This document shows positions 26,714 to 36,441 of a DNA stretch of 64,000 nt, in pieces. The position numbers and the translations under genes are program-made. The DNA comes from an uncultured Eubacteriales bacterium (GTDB lineage: Bacteria; Bacillota; Clostridia; Oscillospirales; CAG-272). The notes beneath the pieces were generated by a model. The model was not told where the DNA came from and did no database searches. It was given only the letters and a program-made list of their open reading frames with translations. The stretch spans positions 1 through 64,000 of the forward strand of contig CAOKER010000001.1 of assembly GCA_948467545.1 (NCBI GenBank). The letters run 5' to 3'. Positions within the stretch are counted from its first letter, which is position 1. Each line of letters begins with the position of its first letter.

Positions 26714-28549
26714 ATGTGCGGAATTATCGGATATACCGGAAGTGAAAATGCAGTGCCGAAGCTTCTTGACGGACTTTCTGCTCTTGAATACCGCGGATAT
26801 GATTCGGCGGGAGTTGCGGTTTTTGATTCTGAAAATAAAGTCAAGATTATTAAGTCAAAAGGGAGGCTGTCTGTTCTCAGGGAAAAAATCAGCCTTATGC
26901 CCGATGAGCTGTATTCGGGGTGCGGTATAGGACATACGCGATGGGCGACGCACGGAGAGCCTTCCGATATCAATTCTCATCCTCACGGTACCTTTAATGT
27001 TAGCATAGTCCATAACGGAATTATTGAAAACTACGCCGATATTAAGGAAATTCTTATCGGGGAGGGCTATAAATTTGTTTCCGAAACCGATACCGAAGCC
27101 GCGGCAAAGCTTATCGACAGTATTTATCTTAAGACAAGAAATCCGGTTGACGCCATGCTTGAAGCTGCAAAGCTTCTTACCGGGTCGTTTGCTGTCGGCG
27201 CTGTATTTACGGATTATCCCGGTGTAATTTACGCAATGCGCAGAGAAAGTCCTTTAATAGCGGCAGTAAGCGATAAGGGATGTTTCATTGCATCGGATAT
27301 TTCAGCTGTATTAAAGTATACTAACCGATTTTACCGTATTAAGGAAAACGAAATAGCTATTATAAACGAGCGCGAAATTACGGTTTTGGGTGCTGACAAA
27401 ATGCCGGTATCCAAGCAATTGGAGACTGCGGATTGGGATATAGAGGCGGCAGAGAAGGGCGGTTATCCGTTTTTCATGATTAAGGAGATTCATGAGGAAC
27501 CGGAAGCGGTGCTAAAAACGCTGAGACCGCGTATTAAAGACGGAGTACCCGATTTAGGGATTCCCGAGCTTACCGATGAAAAGCTTATATCTTTTGAGAG
27601 AATTCATATCGTTGCCTGCGGAACAGCAATGCATGCAGGTATGATAGGGAAATATGCGATTGAAAAAATTGCGAGAATTCCGGTAAATGTTGAAATCGCG
27701 TCGGAGTTCAGATATAACAATCCTATACTTGGGGAAAAAGAGCTTGTGATTATTATTTCTCAATCGGGTGAGACTGCCGATACTCTTGCTGCGCTGAGAC
27801 TCGCAAAACTAAACGGAGTATACACGCTTGCAATTGTCAACGTTCCCGGATCGACAATTGCAAATGAAGCCGACAGTGTAATTTACACGTGGGCCGGCCC
27901 TGAAATTGCGGTTGCAAGTACAAAGGCTTATGAGGTTCAGCTCGCGATTATGTATCTTTTTGCATTCAAGCTGGCATATATTCACGGAATGCTTTCCGAA
28001 GCCGATACGAAAAAGTATCTTGACGAGCTTTTGAACGACGTACCGAAAAAGATTAAAAAGTCAATTGAACTTGAAAAAAAATGCTCTGAAATTGCGGAGA
28101 AGTACAAAAATCATAAAAATATTTTTTTTATCGGCAGAGGAGCCGATTATATTCTCAGTATGGAATCCGCGCTTAAGCTTAAGGAAATCTCATATATTCA
28201 CTGTGAGGCATATGCCGCAGGAGAGCTTAAACACGGGACAATATCGCTCGTGACCGACGGGACGCCTGTTTTTGCTATAGCCTGTCAGGACGGGCTTTTT
28301 GAAAAGATGGTAAGCAATATCGGCGAGGTACGCGCGAGAGGCGCAAGTGTTATCCTAATCTGTAAGGAAAGTACAGAGCTTCCCGACGGAATTGCGGAGG
28401 AAATTATACGTGTACCTGAGACTTCCGAGTTGTTTATGCCAATGCCGGTTATTACAATTTCTCAGCTTATTGCATATTACACATCTCTAAGGCTCGGACT
28501 TGATGTTGACAAACCGAGAAATCTTGCTAAATCGGTTACTGTAGAATAG
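26714..28549 (+). CDS. glmS: Glutamine-fructose-6-phosphate aminotransferase
   Basis: This 611-residue enzyme makes glucosamine-6-phosphate from fructose-6-phosphate and glutamine. The N-terminal class II amidotransferase domain begins Met-Cys-Gly-Ile with Cys2 as nucleophile, and includes ALEYRGYDSAG and GHTRWATHG. Two SIS domains follow (about 290-590), with CGTAMHAG and SQSGETADT, and the conserved PRNLAKSVTVE end. ATG 26714 is chosen because AGAGGA lies nine bases before it and it exposes Cys2; an upstream in-frame ATG would bury the nucleophile. glmM follows, making a GlcNAc precursor operon. Confidence 0.97.
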   Translation: MCGIIGYTGSENAVPKLLDGLSALEYRGYDSAGVAVFDSENKVKIIKSKGRLSVLREKISLMPDELYSGCGIGHTRWATHGEPSDINSHPHGTFNVSIVHNGIIENYADIKEILIGEGYKFVSETDTEAAAKLIDSIYLKTRNPVDAMLEAAKLLTGSFAVGAVFTDYPGVIYAMRRESPLIAAVSDKGCFIASDISAVLKYTNRFYRIKENEIAIINEREITVLGADKMPVSKQLETADWDIEAAEKGGYPFFMIKEIHEEPEAVLKTLRPRIKDGVPDLGIPELTDEKLISFERIHIVACGTAMHAGMIGKYAIEKIARIPVNVEIASEFRYNNPILGEKELVIIISQSGETADTLAALRLAKLNGVYTLAIVNVPGSTIANEADSVIYTWAGPEIAVASTKAYEVQLAIMYLFAFKLAYIHGMLSEADTKKYLDELLNDVPKKIKKSIELEKKCSEIAEKYKNHKNIFFIGRGADYILSMESALKLKEISYIHCEAYAAGELKHGTISLVTDGTPVFAIACQDGLFEKMVSNIGEVRARGASVILICKESTELPDGIAEEIIRVPETSELFMPMPVITISQLIAYYTSLRLGLDVDKPRNLAKSVTVE

Positions 28550-28592
28550 CTGAAATGACCGTGTAAAATAATGAAAGGAAGCTTCCACTGTT

Positions 28593-29960
28593 GTGGAGTA
28601 CAGGATTTATAAAGTGGGAAAATATTTCGGAACAGACGGCTTCCGCGGAGAGGCAAATAAAGTGCTTACCGTAGAACACGCCTTTAAGGTGGGCAGGTAT
28701 TTGGGATGGCATTACGGCAAGGAGCACAAATGTAAGGTTGTTTTGGGCAAGGACACGCGACGTTCAAGCTATATGCTTGAATATGCGCTTGTAGCCGGGC
28801 TGACGTCAAGCGGGGCTGATGCATATCTTCTTCATGTTACAACTACGCCTTCGGTCTCATATGTTGTAAGAACCGAGGACTTTGACTGCGGAATTATGAT
28901 CTCTGCCAGTCATAATCCGTATTATGACAACGGAATTAAGCTTATCAACAGCCGTGGTGAAAAGATGAGTGAATCTATTATAGCCGATATTGAAGCATAT
29001 ATTGATGGAATTATAGGCGAACTTCCGTATGCGACGAGAGAGAATATCGGCTGTACAATCGATTATGCGGGGGGAAGAAACCGTTATACCGGCTACATTA
29101 TTTCGCTCGCAAGAAATTCGTACAAGGATTTTAATATAGGCCTTGACTGTTCAAACGGCAGTACGTGGATGCTTGCAAAGAGTATTTTTGACGCGCTCGG
29201 TGCGCATACATTTGTAATCGGTAACAGTCCGACAGGTTTTAATATCAATAAGGACTGCGGTTCTACCCATATAGACAGCCTGCGTTCTCTTGTCAGAGAT
29301 AAAGGGCTCGATATCGGATTTGCTTTTGACGGGGACGCCGACAGATGTATCGCCGTTGACGACAAGGGACAGATTCTTACGGGAGATCATATACTGTATC
29401 TCTGCGGAAGCTATATGAAGGCCAAAGGAGAGTTAAAGAAAAATACTGTTGTAACAACAGTAATGTCAAATACCGGATTGTATAAAGCATTTGATGAAAA
29501 GAATATAGCCTGCGTTAAGACCGACGTCGGGGATAAGTATGTATACGAGGCTATGCAAAAAGGAGGATACTGCCTCGGTGGAGAGGAGTCCGGGCATGTG
29601 ATTTTTTCTAAATTTGCTTCAACCGGAGACGGACTTATATCGGCAATCAAGGTTATGGAGGTATTTATAGAGAGCAAGCTTCCTTCGTCGGGACTTTGTA
29701 CCGGGCTTGAGTATTATCCTCAGCTTACAAAAAATATCAAAGTGGACGACAAGGATGCCGCTGTCACCGACAGCGATGTGCTTGAAGCTGTAAAGTATGC
29801 GGAGGATAAGCTTGGTGATGACGGGAAAGTTCTTCTCAGAAAAAGCGGTACGGAACCGGTTGTTCGCGTAACTGTAGAAGCCAAGGGAGAAGATCTTTGC
29901 CGGACGCTTGCCGATCGAATTGCAGACACAATAATTAAAAAGGGCTATGAAGTAAAATAG
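28593..29960 (+). CDS. glmM: Phosphoglucosamine mutase
   Basis: This 455-residue enzyme converts GlcN-6-P to GlcN-1-P. The phosphoserine loop SASHNP places the catalytic Ser at 106. The Mg-binding loop DGDADR and the C-terminal phosphate-binding RKSGTEP are present, as is the sugar loop GGEESGH. It starts with GTG 28593; the nearest Shine-Dalgarno (AAGGA) is 13 nt away, so a slightly later start is possible, but the conserved FGTDGFRG at 12-19 must be included. It lies 43 bp after glmS. The last codons and stop lie inside a tandem repeat. Confidence 0.96.
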   Translation: MEYRIYKVGKYFGTDGFRGEANKVLTVEHAFKVGRYLGWHYGKEHKCKVVLGKDTRRSSYMLEYALVAGLTSSGADAYLLHVTTTPSVSYVVRTEDFDCGIMISASHNPYYDNGIKLINSRGEKMSESIIADIEAYIDGIIGELPYATRENIGCTIDYAGGRNRYTGYIISLARNSYKDFNIGLDCSNGSTWMLAKSIFDALGAHTFVIGNSPTGFNINKDCGSTHIDSLRSLVRDKGLDIGFAFDGDADRCIAVDDKGQILTGDHILYLCGSYMKAKGELKKNTVVTTVMSNTGLYKAFDEKNIACVKTDVGDKYVYEAMQKGGYCLGGEESGHVIFSKFASTGDGLISAIKVMEVFIESKLPSSGLCTGLEYYPQLTKNIKVDDKDAAVTDSDVLEAVKYAEDKLGDDGKVLLRKSGTEPVVRVTVEAKGEDLCRTLADRIADTIIKKGYEVK

Positions 29961-29988
29961 TTTTTAAGAAGTAAAATAGTTTTTAAAA
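29951..29988. repeat. 19-bp duplication spanning the glmM stop codon
   Basis: AGTAAAATAGTTTTTAAGA (29951-29969) is repeated with one change at 29970-29988. The first copy contains the last codons and TAG stop of glmM, so the gene's 3' end has been tandemly duplicated into the spacer. Confidence 0.85.
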
Positions 29989-30035
29989 TGTCCTCCGTAC
30001 GTATCCTTCACACGTCGGACATAATTTCTGTTTTT
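29988..30035 (+). terminator. Probable terminator after glmM
   Basis: ATGTCC..CCG pairs imperfectly with CG..GGACAT across a loop of about 15 nt and is followed by AATTTCTGTTTTTTG. Confidence 0.6.
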
Positions 30036-30070
30036 TGAATTTAGATTTCAAAAATATCAAGAGAATAATC

Positions 30071-30099
30071 TTGACTTATTTTATTAGATATGATAAAAT
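30071..30099 (+). promoter_or_regulatory. Promoter for the TerB-N gene
   Basis: TTGACT (30071-30076), a 17-bp spacer and TAAAAT (30094-30099), with TGA directly before the -10 (extended -10). It gives the TerB-N/ATPase/alaS run its own start. Confidence 0.65.
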
Positions 30100-30136
30100 A
30101 TTTTGATACAGATTTTGATTTAATTGTATTGGAGTG

Positions 30137-32092
30137 ATGAGTTTGGATGAGAAAGAATTCGGCGCACAGCTGCCGAACGATTCAGACTCATTTTGGAATC
30201 TGTCATCTGAATTTTCTAAGTCCGAAAAGGAAAAGAAACTAAAGACGTTTTCGGACGATACGGACGCTGTTCTTATAAATGTCGGCGAGGAAAACAACTG
30301 TGAAAATTCAAATAAAAGCTGTATTGTATCTGATTACGCTGTAAAAGATGCGAGGCAGAATCCTGACAAGCTTGAAATTATGTCGGATTCGGAAATAGCC
30401 GTCGGAAAATCGTATAAAAACAGTGAAGGCTCAGATGCTGATATAGAGAATAACGACCTTCATGAGCTTACAAAGCTGCTTTTAAGGCTTCGGGAAAGAG
30501 CTAAACACAATACATTTGTACAATCATCAAACGGAATTTGTGAAAAACACGAGAATTCGGAATATAATGTGGCTGTTCCTCGCTTTCATACGCTGAACCG
30601 AACAGGATTAATTCGTTCATATGAACCCGGCCATCCGCTTGTCCGCAGCGTCGAGGTGCTTGAATGGCCTTCGAGATACAGCTTTTACGAAAGATTCCGT
30701 CAAGACGCCGTCAGATACTTCGAGACCGAAGGAACCGAATGCAGCTATGCCGAGTTCAATTCCTTTGTACCTCAGTATTGTATGATGACGGAAAATCAAA
30801 GACGCTATTATTTATGGTGGAGAACCTGTATAAGAAACGGTAGAAATATCTATGTCTCCAAAAGCTATATTCTGCTGTTGCTTTATGAGATTATAAATCT
30901 TCCTGATTTACTTCCTCCGAATGACGGCGTGAAACTTATCTGCAGGCTTATCTGCGGATATCATGATAAGCTTTGCGGAATCAGAAATTCGGTTGCCGTT
31001 TGGCTTCGTGACTACTGCCTGATACATGAAGTCGAAATTCCGTCTGAATACATGGAGCAGATAGCAGAATATGCGGGCAAATATACTTCTTTTTCAGAGT
31101 TTTTTATCAAGTATGATCCGGAGACAAAGCAGCCTGATCCGCAAAGCTATATACAACTTCTGTCACGTTACTCATGGTGGGACAGTAAATATCTTTCCGG
31201 CGATAACAGACATATATTTGACAAGTGCATGTCCGGGGCTCTTTTGGCGGCATACCGCGCGGAAAACGGCAGCGGAATGTTTGATTTGTCACATATGCAG
31301 ACGGGAAAATATATTGCCGAATCATACAGCGGAGCGGTATGCACTTCTGAGATCAAATGCAGACTTCGTGTTTCATATTACAAGTGTACCGGTTGTGGAG
31401 ATTATAACTGTTCAACCGAAATTGTCAAATATGCTGAAAACCAGATAAGGCGTCTGATAGGAATAAAGGCGCGCTTTAAGGTCCCGGATCTTCCCAAACG
31501 AATTTCTTCTGCCGTTGACGCTTATTTTGCACCGTTTCTTGAAGAGGAGGACCGAAGAAAAAAGCTCGAAAAACGTAACCGTTTGTCATCGTCATCGGAG
31601 GAAATTTCGCCTGAATACAGCAAATTTTACGAGGCTGAAAGTACAGGAATTTCTTTTGAACACGCTTTGGAAATTGAAAAAAAATCATGGAAAATCACAG
31701 AAAAGCTTGTAGAGGCTTTTGACGGTTCGGATATAAATTCCGGCGGAGATGAAAAAACAGACGCAGACAGTATGCGGAATGCGGATTTCGGACAGGCTGA
31801 ACATCTTGATTTACAATTATCATCTGACGGCGGAGAAAAAGTTATCTCTGACGACGGTGACGCTGTTCTTCGGCGCGGAATTGAATTTTTGCTTAATGGA
31901 GACAATATGGGATTTGACGAGCTTGCAAAGTCCGAAAAAATGCTTCCGGACACGCTTGCCGAAAAAATCAACGATAGATTTACCGTACTTATCGGAGATA
32001 TTGTATTGCAGACAGACACTGATTCTTATACGATAATAGACGATTATCGGGATGACGCTGAAAGCTTTGCAAGAGGTACTATGATTGATTGA
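30137..32092 (+). CDS. TerB-N/TerB-C domain protein
   Basis: This ~651-residue protein has an acidic low-complexity start (1-110), a TerB-N domain (about 150-370) recognised by the pattern M-x-x-N-Q-x-x-Y-Y-x-W-W-R-x-x-x-R-N-G followed by SYILLLLYEIIN, and a TerB-C-like end (INDRFTVLIGDIVL). Four Cys in an x-C-x-x-C-x-x-x-x-C pattern near 415-425 could bind metal. TerB-N proteins occur in stress-response and suspected anti-phage loci with an ATPase and a helicase. Here the ATPase gene follows but no helicase is seen. The start is uncertain: ATG 30137 is very close to GGAG; TTG 30143, 8 nt away, or GTG 30134 are alternatives. Confidence 0.78.
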   Translation: MSLDEKEFGAQLPNDSDSFWNLSSEFSKSEKEKKLKTFSDDTDAVLINVGEENNCENSNKSCIVSDYAVKDARQNPDKLEIMSDSEIAVGKSYKNSEGSDADIENNDLHELTKLLLRLRERAKHNTFVQSSNGICEKHENSEYNVAVPRFHTLNRTGLIRSYEPGHPLVRSVEVLEWPSRYSFYERFRQDAVRYFETEGTECSYAEFNSFVPQYCMMTENQRRYYLWWRTCIRNGRNIYVSKSYILLLLYEIINLPDLLPPNDGVKLICRLICGYHDKLCGIRNSVAVWLRDYCLIHEVEIPSEYMEQIAEYAGKYTSFSEFFIKYDPETKQPDPQSYIQLLSRYSWWDSKYLSGDNRHIFDKCMSGALLAAYRAENGSGMFDLSHMQTGKYIAESYSGAVCTSEIKCRLRVSYYKCTGCGDYNCSTEIVKYAENQIRRLIGIKARFKVPDLPKRISSAVDAYFAPFLEEEDRRKKLEKRNRLSSSSEEISPEYSKFYEAESTGISFEHALEIEKKSWKITEKLVEAFDGSDINSGGDEKTDADSMRNADFGQAEHLDLQLSSDGGEKVISDDGDAVLRRGIEFLLNGDNMGFDELAKSEKMLPDTLAEKINDRFTVLIGDIVLQTDTDSYTIIDDYRDDAESFARGTMID

Positions 32093-32376
32093 AACAGAGC
32101 GGCAGCTATTTTCTAAACTCGGAGAATGACACAAGAAAAAATCATTTTTATATTACTTATGGCGAAAAAATGACAATAGAATTTTAAATTCAGCGAAAAA
32201 ACGATTTTTTTATGACATTATAAATTAAAGGGGAATATCGTCGCGATACATACTCTTTATATGCGTACAGAGAAAAGTTTTTGCAGTGTTGTGCGCATAT
32301 TATGCATAGAAAAGTCTGCGCGAAGATACGGAGATAATTGTTTGGCGCGATTATATTTCGTGCCGGAAAGGAATTT

Positions 32377-33771
32377 ATGCTAATGGACGGAGATGAAAGC
32401 AGTTTCAAAAACAAACCTGTTCCTAAACGTATTTTATCGTCGCTTATAGGTTCGGTTACGGCCGGTGTTGTGCCGAGAATCGGTGCGCCGTATATAGCAA
32501 TTGGACGCGGAGATGAAATTTCTGCTTTGCTTTCTGACCTTGAAAAGATCAGTGAAGGCGGTTCTGCAATGCGGTTTATTATAGGACGGTACGGAAGCGG
32601 AAAGAGCTTTTTAATGCAGCTTATCAGAGGATATGCGACCGAACGCGGTTTTATAACGGCAGATGCGGATTTGTCTCCCGAAAGAAGAATTTGCAGCGGT
32701 AACGGCGGAGGAATCGCAACCTATAGAGAGCTTATAAAGAATCTCGCGTGCCGCGCTTCCCCCGACGGAGGTGCGCTTCCGGTTATGATTTCCAAATGGC
32801 TTTCGGAGGTTCAGCGTGAAGTTGCGGAAACAGGAATAGATATAAACTCTCCCGGCTTTAGAAATGAAGTTTCAAAGAGAATATATTCCGCTGCAAGGCA
32901 GCTTCAGGATTATGTCGGCGGATTTGATTTTTCATCGGTTATATCAGAATATTATGAGGCTTTTTGTGCAGGAGACGACGAGAAAAGAAGTTGCTGTCTC
33001 AAATGGCTCCGCGGAGAATATCGGACTAAGACTGAGGCAAAGCATGATCTTCATGTCGGAGATATAATCGGTGATGAGAACTGGCAGGATATGATAAAGC
33101 TCCTTGCCGTTTTTGCACGTATGACCGGATATCGCGGAATGGTTGTATTCATCGATGAATGTGTAAATTTGTATAAGATAACAAACAGAATTTCGCGTGA
33201 AAACAACTATGAAAAGCTGCTGTCTCTCTTTAATGATACCATGCAGGGCAGATCAGAGGGACTTGCGTGGGTATTCGGAGGAACGCCGCAGTTTCTTGAG
33301 GATACGAGACGCGGATTATTCTCGTATGAGGCGCTTCGTTCCAGACTGTGTGACAGCAGATTTGATTCCGGAGAATACAAGAATATGCTCGGTCCCGTAA
33401 TTCGTCTCCGAAGACTTTCCGACAATGAGCTTCTTGCGCTTTTGGCACGCATGACGGACCTCCATGCTCAGTATTACAATTGGAAGCCGCCTGTCACTGA
33501 GAACGATATGCAGTCGTTCCTGAAAATTTGTCTTTCACGGGCGGGAGCTGACGCATTGCTTACTCCGCGGGAACTTCTGCGTGATTATATGGCTGTTCTC
33601 GGCATTTTGTTTCAGAATAAAAGCGCAGTCTTTTTAGATGTTGTCGGGGCTGAGCTTAAGGCCGACGGAGACGGAAATTCTTCCGTGCATGAAAGCGAAG
33701 GCCGTACGGCCGAGTCAAATGTTTCATACGGCGTTCAAATTGGCATACAGCCTGATGATATTATAATCTAA
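32377..33771 (+). CDS. BREX BrxD-like (DUF2791) P-loop ATPase
   Basis: This 464-residue cytoplasmic ATPase has Walker A GRYGSGKS at 70-77 and Walker B VVFIDE with Asp260-Glu261, followed by the NLYKI segment, and a downstream arginine-rich sensor region (GTPQFLEDTRRGLFSYEALRSRL). The block GAPYIAIGRGDEISALLSDL before Walker A is typical of DUF2791 proteins, which include BrxD of BREX type 2 systems. The partner here is the TerB-N gene 284 bp upstream. ATG 32377 is chosen because AAAGGA lies 4 nt before it, with ATG 32383 at 10 nt as alternative; the further upstream TTG has no site. alaS begins 27 bp later. Confidence 0.85.
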   Translation: MLMDGDESSFKNKPVPKRILSSLIGSVTAGVVPRIGAPYIAIGRGDEISALLSDLEKISEGGSAMRFIIGRYGSGKSFLMQLIRGYATERGFITADADLSPERRICSGNGGGIATYRELIKNLACRASPDGGALPVMISKWLSEVQREVAETGIDINSPGFRNEVSKRIYSAARQLQDYVGGFDFSSVISEYYEAFCAGDDEKRSCCLKWLRGEYRTKTEAKHDLHVGDIIGDENWQDMIKLLAVFARMTGYRGMVVFIDECVNLYKITNRISRENNYEKLLSLFNDTMQGRSEGLAWVFGGTPQFLEDTRRGLFSYEALRSRLCDSRFDSGEYKNMLGPVIRLRRLSDNELLALLARMTDLHAQYYNWKPPVTENDMQSFLKICLSRAGADALLTPRELLRDYMAVLGILFQNKSAVFLDVVGAELKADGDGNSSVHESEGRTAESNVSYGVQIGIQPDDIII

Positions 33772-33798
33772 AAAATTAAATTGGTAAGGAGAATAATC

Positions 33799-36441
33799 AT
33801 GGAGTGGACCTCCCTTAATGATCTTCGTGAAAAATATCTGTCATTTTTTGAATCAAAAGGACATCTCAGACATAAGAGCTTCCCGCTTGTTCCTATTGAC
33901 GACAAGTCAATTTTACTTATAAATGCCGGCATGACCCCCCTTAAGAAATTTTTTACGGGTGAGCTCGAACCGCCGAGACACCGCATGACAACATGTCAGA
34001 AATGTATCAGAACGCCTGATATAGAGCGTGTGGGTATTACCGCGCGGCATGGTACATACTTTGAGATGCTTGGGAATTTTTCGTTCGGTGACTATTTTAA
34101 AGAGGAAGCTATTCCGTGGGCGTGGGAATTTTGTACCAAGGTGCTCAAACTGCCGGAGGACAAGCTGTGGGTAACAATTTATCTCGATGATGATGAGGCA
34201 TTTGATATTTGGCATAATAAGGTCGGTGTTCCTGAAGAGCGTATTGTGCGCCTCGGAAAAGAGGATAACTTCTGGGAACACGGAAGCGGACCGTGCGGAC
34301 CGTGTTCGGAGATACATTTTGACCGCGGAGAAAAATTCGGATGCGGAAAGCCGGATTGCAAACCCGGATGCGACTGCGATCGGTTTATGGAATTTTGGAA
34401 TCTTGTTTTTACGCAGTTTGAGGGCGACGGGCACGGAGGATATGAAAGACTTTCGAATCCGAATATAGATACGGGAATGGGACTTGAACGGCTGGCCTGT
34501 CTTATGCAGGGTGTGAATAACCTTTTTGAGGTTGATACGGTACGTAATATTATGCTTGCGGTTTCGAAAGCGGCCGGAGTCGAATACGGAAAAGATGAAA
34601 AATCGGATATTTCTCTTCGCGTTATTACAGACCATATACGAAGTACGGTATTTATGATATGCGACGGAGTTGTTCCGTCAAATGAAGGCCGGGGGTATGT
34701 GCTTCGCCGTCTTTTAAGACGTGCGGCACGGCACGGACGGCTTCTCGGAATCGACGGAACATTTCTTGCGGATATTGTACCAGTTGTCGCAAGGGAAAAT
34801 ATCAGTGAATATCCTGAACTGACGGAAAAGCTTGAATATATTAAAAAGGTTGTATCTATTGAAGAGGAACGTTTCTCCGCTACAATCGACAGCGGATTAT
34901 CTATACTTGAAGGAATGATTAAAAACACAAAGTCAGAGAGGAAAAGCGTTCTTCCCGGAGAAGATATTTTTAAGCTTAGCGATACCTTTGGGTTCCCTGT
35001 TGACTTGACGAAAGAAATTGCGGCTGAATCAGGTCTTGAAATTGATATTTCGGGTTTTGATGCCCTAATGGCTCAACAAAAGCAGAGAGCGCGCGATGCC
35101 CGTGCCGCTATGGGAGACCTTGGTTGGGCGGCCGGCACGGTTGAGGCGATCGGCGATATAGCGAAAACGGAATTTGTGGGATATAATCGGACTTGTGCGG
35201 AATGTAAAGTAGTATCTATTATCGATTGTGAGACATCCGAGCAGCTTGATTCAGCGTCTGACGGCAAAGTTATTATAATTCTTGATCGTACGCCGTTTTA
35301 CGGTGAAAGCGGCGGTCAGGTTGGAGATACCGGTACAATTATCTGCGGTGATCGTAAAATTGTTGTAAATGATACGAAGAAAAATACGGGTATATACATG
35401 CATTTCTGTACGCTTGACGGTACACCAGTATCTGTTGGTGATACGGTTTCTGCTCAAATTGATGTAGACAGACGGGACGCAATACGAAGAAATCATTCTG
35501 CCTGCCACCTTCTTCAGGCTGCTTTGCGCAGGGTGCTCGGAAATCATGTTGAACAGGCGGGATCATATGTTGACGCAGACCGCGTGCGTTTTGATTTCAA
35601 GCATTTTTCCGCTATGACGGCAGAAGAAATCGCAAGGACCGAACAGCTTGTAAACACCGAAATTCTTCGAGGAACTTCAATTGACACTTTGGAAACCGAT
35701 ATTGAAACTGCGCGCAGAAACGGGGCTATGGCACTGTTTGGAGAAAAATACGGTGCTGTTGTCCGAATGGTTAAAATGGGTGATTTTTCATGCGAGTTGT
35801 GCGGAGGTACTCACGCGAGCAATACTGCCAAGCTCGGATTGTTTAAAATTTTGTCCGAATCGGGTGTTGCAGCCGGTGTCAGACGTATAGAAGGAACGAC
35901 CGGAATTGGAATTCTTGAGCTGCTTGCGCAGAGGGAGAAATTGATTTCTGAGACCGCGCGGGAGCTTAAGGCTACGAATACTAATGATATTGTCAGACGC
36001 GCCTCCGCGCTTTCGGAGGAGCTGAAAACGGCGCGGCACGATATTGAAATTCTAAACGGACGCATAGCATCGATGCAGATAACATCGATGCTTTCTGAGG
36101 CGGTTGACGTTGGACCTGTAAAGGTTATAACCAGGCAGACAAGCGGTTCTTCGGTTGAAACGGCACGTGCTGTATGCGATGAAATTAAGGGCTCGTATGA
36201 TAACTATGTCGTTGTAATATCTACGGATTTTGAGGGAAAACTTAATTTTGTGTGTTCATGCGGAAAGGCTGCGGTTAATGCCGGGGCCAATGCCGGAAAT
36301 ATTTTGAAGAATATCAGCGCGATTGCAGGAGGAAAAGGCGGCGGACGCCCTGACAGTGCAACTTCCGGAGCTAAAGATCGCGACAAGATAGCAGATGCGC
36401 TTTCCGCAGTTTCAGCTGCCGTTTCGCAGATGCTTAAATAG
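33799..36441 (+). CDS. alaS: Alanine-tRNA ligase
   Basis: This 880-residue class II tRNA synthetase charges tRNA-Ala. It begins with the conserved LREKYLSFFESKGH and has the catalytic-core KCIRTPDIERVG and the GRGYVLRRLLRRAARHG block. The editing domain has HSACH and CELCGGTH zinc-binding motifs, and a C-terminal DHHA1 domain ends with GGKGGGRPDSA. ATG 33799 follows AAGGAG at 33786-33791 (7 nt); upstream TTG 33781 is not needed. Its position 27 bp after the BrxD-like ATPase gene suggests shared transcription. No T-box leader is present, which is unusual for Firmicutes. Confidence 0.97.
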   Translation: MEWTSLNDLREKYLSFFESKGHLRHKSFPLVPIDDKSILLINAGMTPLKKFFTGELEPPRHRMTTCQKCIRTPDIERVGITARHGTYFEMLGNFSFGDYFKEEAIPWAWEFCTKVLKLPEDKLWVTIYLDDDEAFDIWHNKVGVPEERIVRLGKEDNFWEHGSGPCGPCSEIHFDRGEKFGCGKPDCKPGCDCDRFMEFWNLVFTQFEGDGHGGYERLSNPNIDTGMGLERLACLMQGVNNLFEVDTVRNIMLAVSKAAGVEYGKDEKSDISLRVITDHIRSTVFMICDGVVPSNEGRGYVLRRLLRRAARHGRLLGIDGTFLADIVPVVARENISEYPELTEKLEYIKKVVSIEEERFSATIDSGLSILEGMIKNTKSERKSVLPGEDIFKLSDTFGFPVDLTKEIAAESGLEIDISGFDALMAQQKQRARDARAAMGDLGWAAGTVEAIGDIAKTEFVGYNRTCAECKVVSIIDCETSEQLDSASDGKVIIILDRTPFYGESGGQVGDTGTIICGDRKIVVNDTKKNTGIYMHFCTLDGTPVSVGDTVSAQIDVDRRDAIRRNHSACHLLQAALRRVLGNHVEQAGSYVDADRVRFDFKHFSAMTAEEIARTEQLVNTEILRGTSIDTLETDIETARRNGAMALFGEKYGAVVRMVKMGDFSCELCGGTHASNTAKLGLFKILSESGVAAGVRRIEGTTGIGILELLAQREKLISETARELKATNTNDIVRRASALSEELKTARHDIEILNGRIASMQITSMLSEAVDVGPVKVITRQTSGSSVETARAVCDEIKGSYDNYVVVISTDFEGKLNFVCSCGKAAVNAGANAGNILKNISAIAGGKGGGRPDSATSGAKDRDKIADALSAVSAAVSQMLK

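Follow-up and report, generated by a model that had tools for sequence, protein, structure and literature searches.

Shango is a three-gene anti-phage system known from Pseudomonas aeruginosa PA14 and E. coli, and its action against phages was shown by experiment in P. aeruginosa (PMC10250203). Its products are a TerB-like protein, an ATPase and a helicase of the DEAD/DEAH-box type. The nearest comparable pair, BrxD and BrxHI of BREX type 2, is described as a tight dyad, and loading or activation of the helicase has been proposed as the task of BrxD (PMC12839542). SngC falls into one helicase clade with BrxHI, DruE and DpdJ (PMC12278908).

In the window (the whole 64 kb stretch of DNA that was analysed), the two genes at 30134-32092 and ~32377-33771 were identified by profile searches as sngA and sngB of Shango. 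The first-pass annotation had taken them for a reduced defence or stress ATPase module that lacks a helicase. We found that the SngAB pair is part of a dispersed Shango and not a helicase-free module. All three component types match in this genome, each with the best HMM score. As described, Shango is a three-gene cluster in defence islands, whereas here the genes are found in unlinked chromosomal loci beside housekeeping genes, an arrangement common to a clade. Because sngAB is located on contig C1 and sngC on contig C2, the set was classified as a dispersed variant of Shango and not as a canonical locus. No earlier report of a split Shango was found in the literature searched (coverage incomplete). 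The components of Shango are already known; what appears to be new is their stable unlinking with joint retention.

The predicted sngA-sngB pair and its setting

In the ORF list of the window, sngA and sngB are on the + strand between glmM and alaS. Both ORFs of the pair and the 27 bp spacer to alaS (alaS ATG at 33799, counted from the sngB stop) are as first annotated. The features are as follows.

30071..30099, + strand, promoter-like site ahead of sngA, hexamers TTGACT and TAAAAT with a spacer of 17, TG preceding the TAAAAT (consensus scan, 10/12 matches)
30134..32092, + strand, sngA, TerB_N/TerB_C protein of 652 aa with a disordered N-tail carrying D-x-F-W (PADLOC SngA, Pfam TerB_N/TerB_C)
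30686..31042, + strand, TerB_N domain, residues 185-303 (Pfam match; F188, Y226 and E252 invariant in 56 homologues)
31853..32083, + strand, C-terminal domain, residues 574-650, predicted to fold much like a winged helix; overlaps the TerB_C match (AlphaFold2 model)
~32377..33771, + strand, sngB, BrxC/BrxD-type AAA+ ATPase of about 464 aa (PADLOC SngB, Pfam PF10923)
32584..32607, + strand, Walker A GRYGSGKS, residues 71-78 (motif search; YGSGKS invariant in 41 homologues)
33142..33159, + strand, Walker B VVFIDE, residues 257-262 (motif search; D261 and E262 invariant)
33799..36441, + strand, alaS, not a part of Shango but conserved as the gene after sngB in some members of the split clade (ORF list and neighbour comparison)

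SngA is the sole PADLOC-DB model that matches the 30134-32092 product (E 1e-28, residues 173-643). The TerB-N/TerB-C assignment was checked by HMM search: TerB_N was confirmed above the Pfam cut-off (E 1.5e-10), while TerB_C is a partial match below it (E 2.5e-4, 21.7 bits, cut-off 26.3), yet TerB_C is found in 47 of the 56 aligned homologues and TerB_N in all 56. SngA is fast-evolving (mean column identity 25% vs. 58% for SngB) and the window copy has the lowest score of the set. The AlphaFold2 model of SngA is confident at residues ~160-490 and 575-650. Residues 574-650 (pLDDT mostly 93-98) show the order of elements of a winged helix in the predicted model, and the best VIA-align match to LysR-type DNA-binding domains covers 73 residues with Z 6.7 and rmsd 3.3, a Z value below the safe level when taken alone. 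With this moderate Z, the C-terminal domain is the only part of SngA that resembles winged helices, a likeness that shows no function by itself. Foldseek with full-length SngA gave no match at E ≤ 0.001, and no solved structure matching SngA or SngB by sequence was found. D-S-F-W is located at residues 18-21, inside the N-tail predicted to be disordered. D-x-F-W occurs in 36 of the 56 aligned homologues, and many of the others are truncated stretches. This conserved motif is a candidate docking peptide. After the D-x-F-W (window 30134-30250), many relatives carry a hydrophobic pair and then P-K/R.

The putative sngB start, ATG at 32377, is preceded by GGAAAGGA, and the frame is open from 32338. 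The ATPase matches PADLOC SngB with 535.6 bits (E 2.5e-161) and BrxD with 154.6 bits, and PF10923 (BrxC_BrxD) covers it nearly end to end (E 2e-148). The description as a DUF2791-type P-loop ATPase with intact Walker A and B was therefore confirmed by the PF10923 match and both motifs. Its naming after BREX BrxD was not, since the SngB score is far above that of BrxD and the NCBIfam BrxD model gives 155.9 bits, under its cut-off of 350. In the AlphaFold2 model (mean pLDDT 86) SngB has an AAA+ ATPase fold, with HslU, TnsC and ORC/Cdc6 among its top Foldseek matches. No SngB relatives were found in phage records, or in viral contigs by pattern scan.

The gap between sngA and sngB is 284 bp; most relatives show shorter gaps. 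The first-pass annotation gave sngA its own promoter, and a candidate site is indeed present at 30071-30099. The surrounding AT-rich region yields 20 promoter-like matches vs. 8.4 in shuffles in the consensus scan, so the site is weak evidence and, judged from sequence only, may or may not serve as the sngA promoter. No Rfam family was found in 29900-33850. Upstream, the glmS-glmM pair (window 26714-29957) has close matches in only 14 of 32 (glmS) and 20 of 32 (glmM) related genomes. Those of glmM form two groups, one near (55-61%) and one far (about 40-46%).

The SngC helicase at a distant locus

The statement that no helicase accompanies the pair holds within the 64 kb window, where none was seen near sngAB, and fails at genome scale. 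A profile search of the window's own genome (G000) found a full-length SngC at C2:183817-186054 (E 4.2e-240). The translated protein (769 aa, L116:8791-11100) contains DEAD and Helicase_C domains and matches PADLOC SngC with 798.1 bits (E 2.5e-240), the next model being BrxHI with 415 bits. Its motifs TTASGKT, DEIH, SAT and QRLGRSGR are intact, and helicase motifs are intact in 68 of 71 SngC sequences, the other three being fragments. With SngA 30.1 kb from the C1 start and SngC 90.2 kb from the nearer C2 end, the two loci are separated by at least 120 kb in any contig order. In the Streptomyces coelicolor Pgl system, by comparison, a distance of only 6 kb separates the operons. A gene for a VanY-type D-alanyl-D-alanine carboxypeptidase with a long acidic N-terminus (L116:7379-8755 on the same contig) ends 35 bp before sngC. 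Besides G000, a VanY-type gene is found shortly upstream of SngC in G019 and in six genomes of genus g26.

The scores of both enzymes bear on a BREX origin of the locus. Like BREX type 2 BrxD-BrxHI, the ATPase belongs to the PF10923 AAA+ superfamily and is paired with a related Lhr/Ski2-like helicase, and SngB and SngC also match BrxD (154.6 bits) and BrxHI (415 bits), as a BREX type 2 fragment of BrxD plus remnants would. The Shango models give much better scores (535.6 and 798.1 bits), the NCBIfam BrxD cut-off is missed, the partner is a TerB_N protein, and a search of the whole genome for PglZ (PF08665) at E ≤ 0.001 gave no match. We regard a BREX fragment as extremely improbable. The BREX annotation itself is refuted by the sub-cut-off BrxD score and the genome without PglZ.

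Joint retention and split arrangement among relatives

Among 59 relatives, SngA, SngB and SngC were detected in the identical 28 genomes, and one more genome (G019) has SngC only. In a set of 246 family genomes, 157 encode all three, 73 none and 16 a partial set (seven A+B, six C only, two B+C and one A only). The 136 high-quality genomes (≥90% completeness, ≤5% contamination) divide into 99 with all three, 33 with none and four partial ones (A+B in G061; C only in G019, G149 and G249). The first-pass annotation had proposed to look at the neighbours of the pair and for a helicase in related genomes, and this comparison showed that A, B and C are kept or lost together, also where long distances separate them.

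These counts also bear on the first reading, that of a two-gene ATPase module for defence or stress which functions with its helicase lost. The 64 kb window without a helicase is what such a module would look like, and SngAB without SngC is seen in six genomes of lower quality and in G061, which is 96% complete. On the other hand, this genome does encode a full-length SngC, with its motifs intact, at another locus, and 99 of the 100 high-quality genomes with SngB also have SngC. The term "reduced" was abandoned for this reason, and a helicase-free module is considered very unlikely.

Both B and C could be placed in 135 genomes. The two genes are no more than 5 kb apart in 86 of these and on different contigs in the other 49 (about a third), 36 of which are clear of the contig start. 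The assemblies are drafts, and a few of the splits may come from breaks at the opposite end of a contig, as is possible for G077 and G084, where the contig ends 438 and 299 bp away from SngB. Contig breaks as the cause of all splits were rejected, since no order of the contigs brings the two loci of G000 closer than 120 kb. The component on another contig is SngA in genus g17 (G016, G102, G146 and G227). Full dispersal, with A, B and C on three separate contigs, is seen in four genomes of genus g76 (G127, G170, G211 and G245).

In a concatenated SngB+SngC tree of 65 genomes, the window falls within a clade of 22 genomes, all split (SH-aLRT 99). The clade is absent from the single-gene trees (short search), yet it is not rejected by them (p-AU 0.69 and 0.80). 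The split or linked state needs 8 changes on the SngB+SngC tree and 11 changes on the alaS tree, and the SngB and SngC trees agree only in part with that of alaS. The next gene after SngB is alaS in 11 genomes from six genera (G000, G007, G011, G013, G062, G088, G120, G135, G163, G178 and G241) and also at L127. SngC is unlinked in 11 of these 11 genomes. The idea that the pair has settled into a housekeeping operon is thus borne out as a genomic arrangement, in which the pair may be transcribed together with alaS.

Defence annotation seeks gene clusters, and dispersed systems are therefore likely to be overlooked or taken for orphan genes. Such a split appears to be present in at least 36 of the 135 genomes in which B and C were both located.

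Co-divergence and possible function of the three proteins

In 34 split genomes the tree distances of SngB and SngC are correlated (r 0.755). After regressing out the alaS distances in a partial Mantel test, r was 0.604 and none of 2000 permutations reached this value (maximum 0.316); alaS is the single control marker, and shared history beyond alaS could inflate r. The corresponding r in 25 linked genomes is 0.678. glmS and glmM could not be used as additional controls, having matches in 14 and 20 of 32 genomes and divergent groups. The correlation suggests that SngB and SngC go on tracking each other when unlinked.

We consider it quite probable that SngAB and the unlinked SngC still act together in trans as a dispersed Shango. 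The three products probably constitute one machine, and we infer that they form a complex. By analogy with the BrxD-BrxHI dyad, SngB, as an ORC/Cdc6-like AAA+ ATPase, probably loads SngC, a helicase of the Lhr/Ski2 type, onto invading DNA or switches it on there, so that the loader would act before the helicase and DNA would be the target. SngA, with its TerB_N domain and winged-helix-like C-terminal domain, probably serves as a scaffold or sensor signalling when or where. The first-pass annotation also called the locus defence-related, which is supported by homology to the Shango components; defence would then be the purpose of the machine, and activity in this lineage is presumed from that homology.

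The same genes could also belong to a domesticated Shango, i.e., a chromosomally inherited, vertically kept machine for genome maintenance or replication conflicts that takes no part in phage defence. It might be an AAA+-loaded helicase clearing replication or recombination intermediates, with its parts in the alaS and vanY transcription units. Domestication would explain the unlinking and the place beside alaS and vanY. It would also fit the occurrence of all three genes in about two thirds of the family genomes, the inheritance of the split state by a clade of many genera, the SngB-alaS neighbourhood in six genera, and eight sampled window proteins without a PADLOC match. A quarter to a third of the genomes (73/246) have none of the three genes, however, and homologues are carried by 692 plasmids, most of them conjugative. 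The low column identity of SngA relative to SngB is as expected of an arms-race sensor, and the partial match of the B and C trees to alaS also argues against domestication. We consider domestication rather unlikely, and retain a dispersed Shango acting in trans as the preferred explanation.

That SngAB and SngC are retained jointly although unlinked provides a natural test of the three proteins as one functional unit. This makes the unsolved mechanism of Shango approachable, by asking which contacts must survive without co-transcription. It also raises the question of whether a defence system can turn into a stable part of the chromosome. The SngC-only genomes (G019, G149 and G249) and the SngAB-only G061 indicate that partial function is possible. 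G019 (96% complete) keeps SngC (L124, G019:C49:5094-7256) without detectable SngA or SngB, and an SngC that lacks its partners in this way may serve a separate function.
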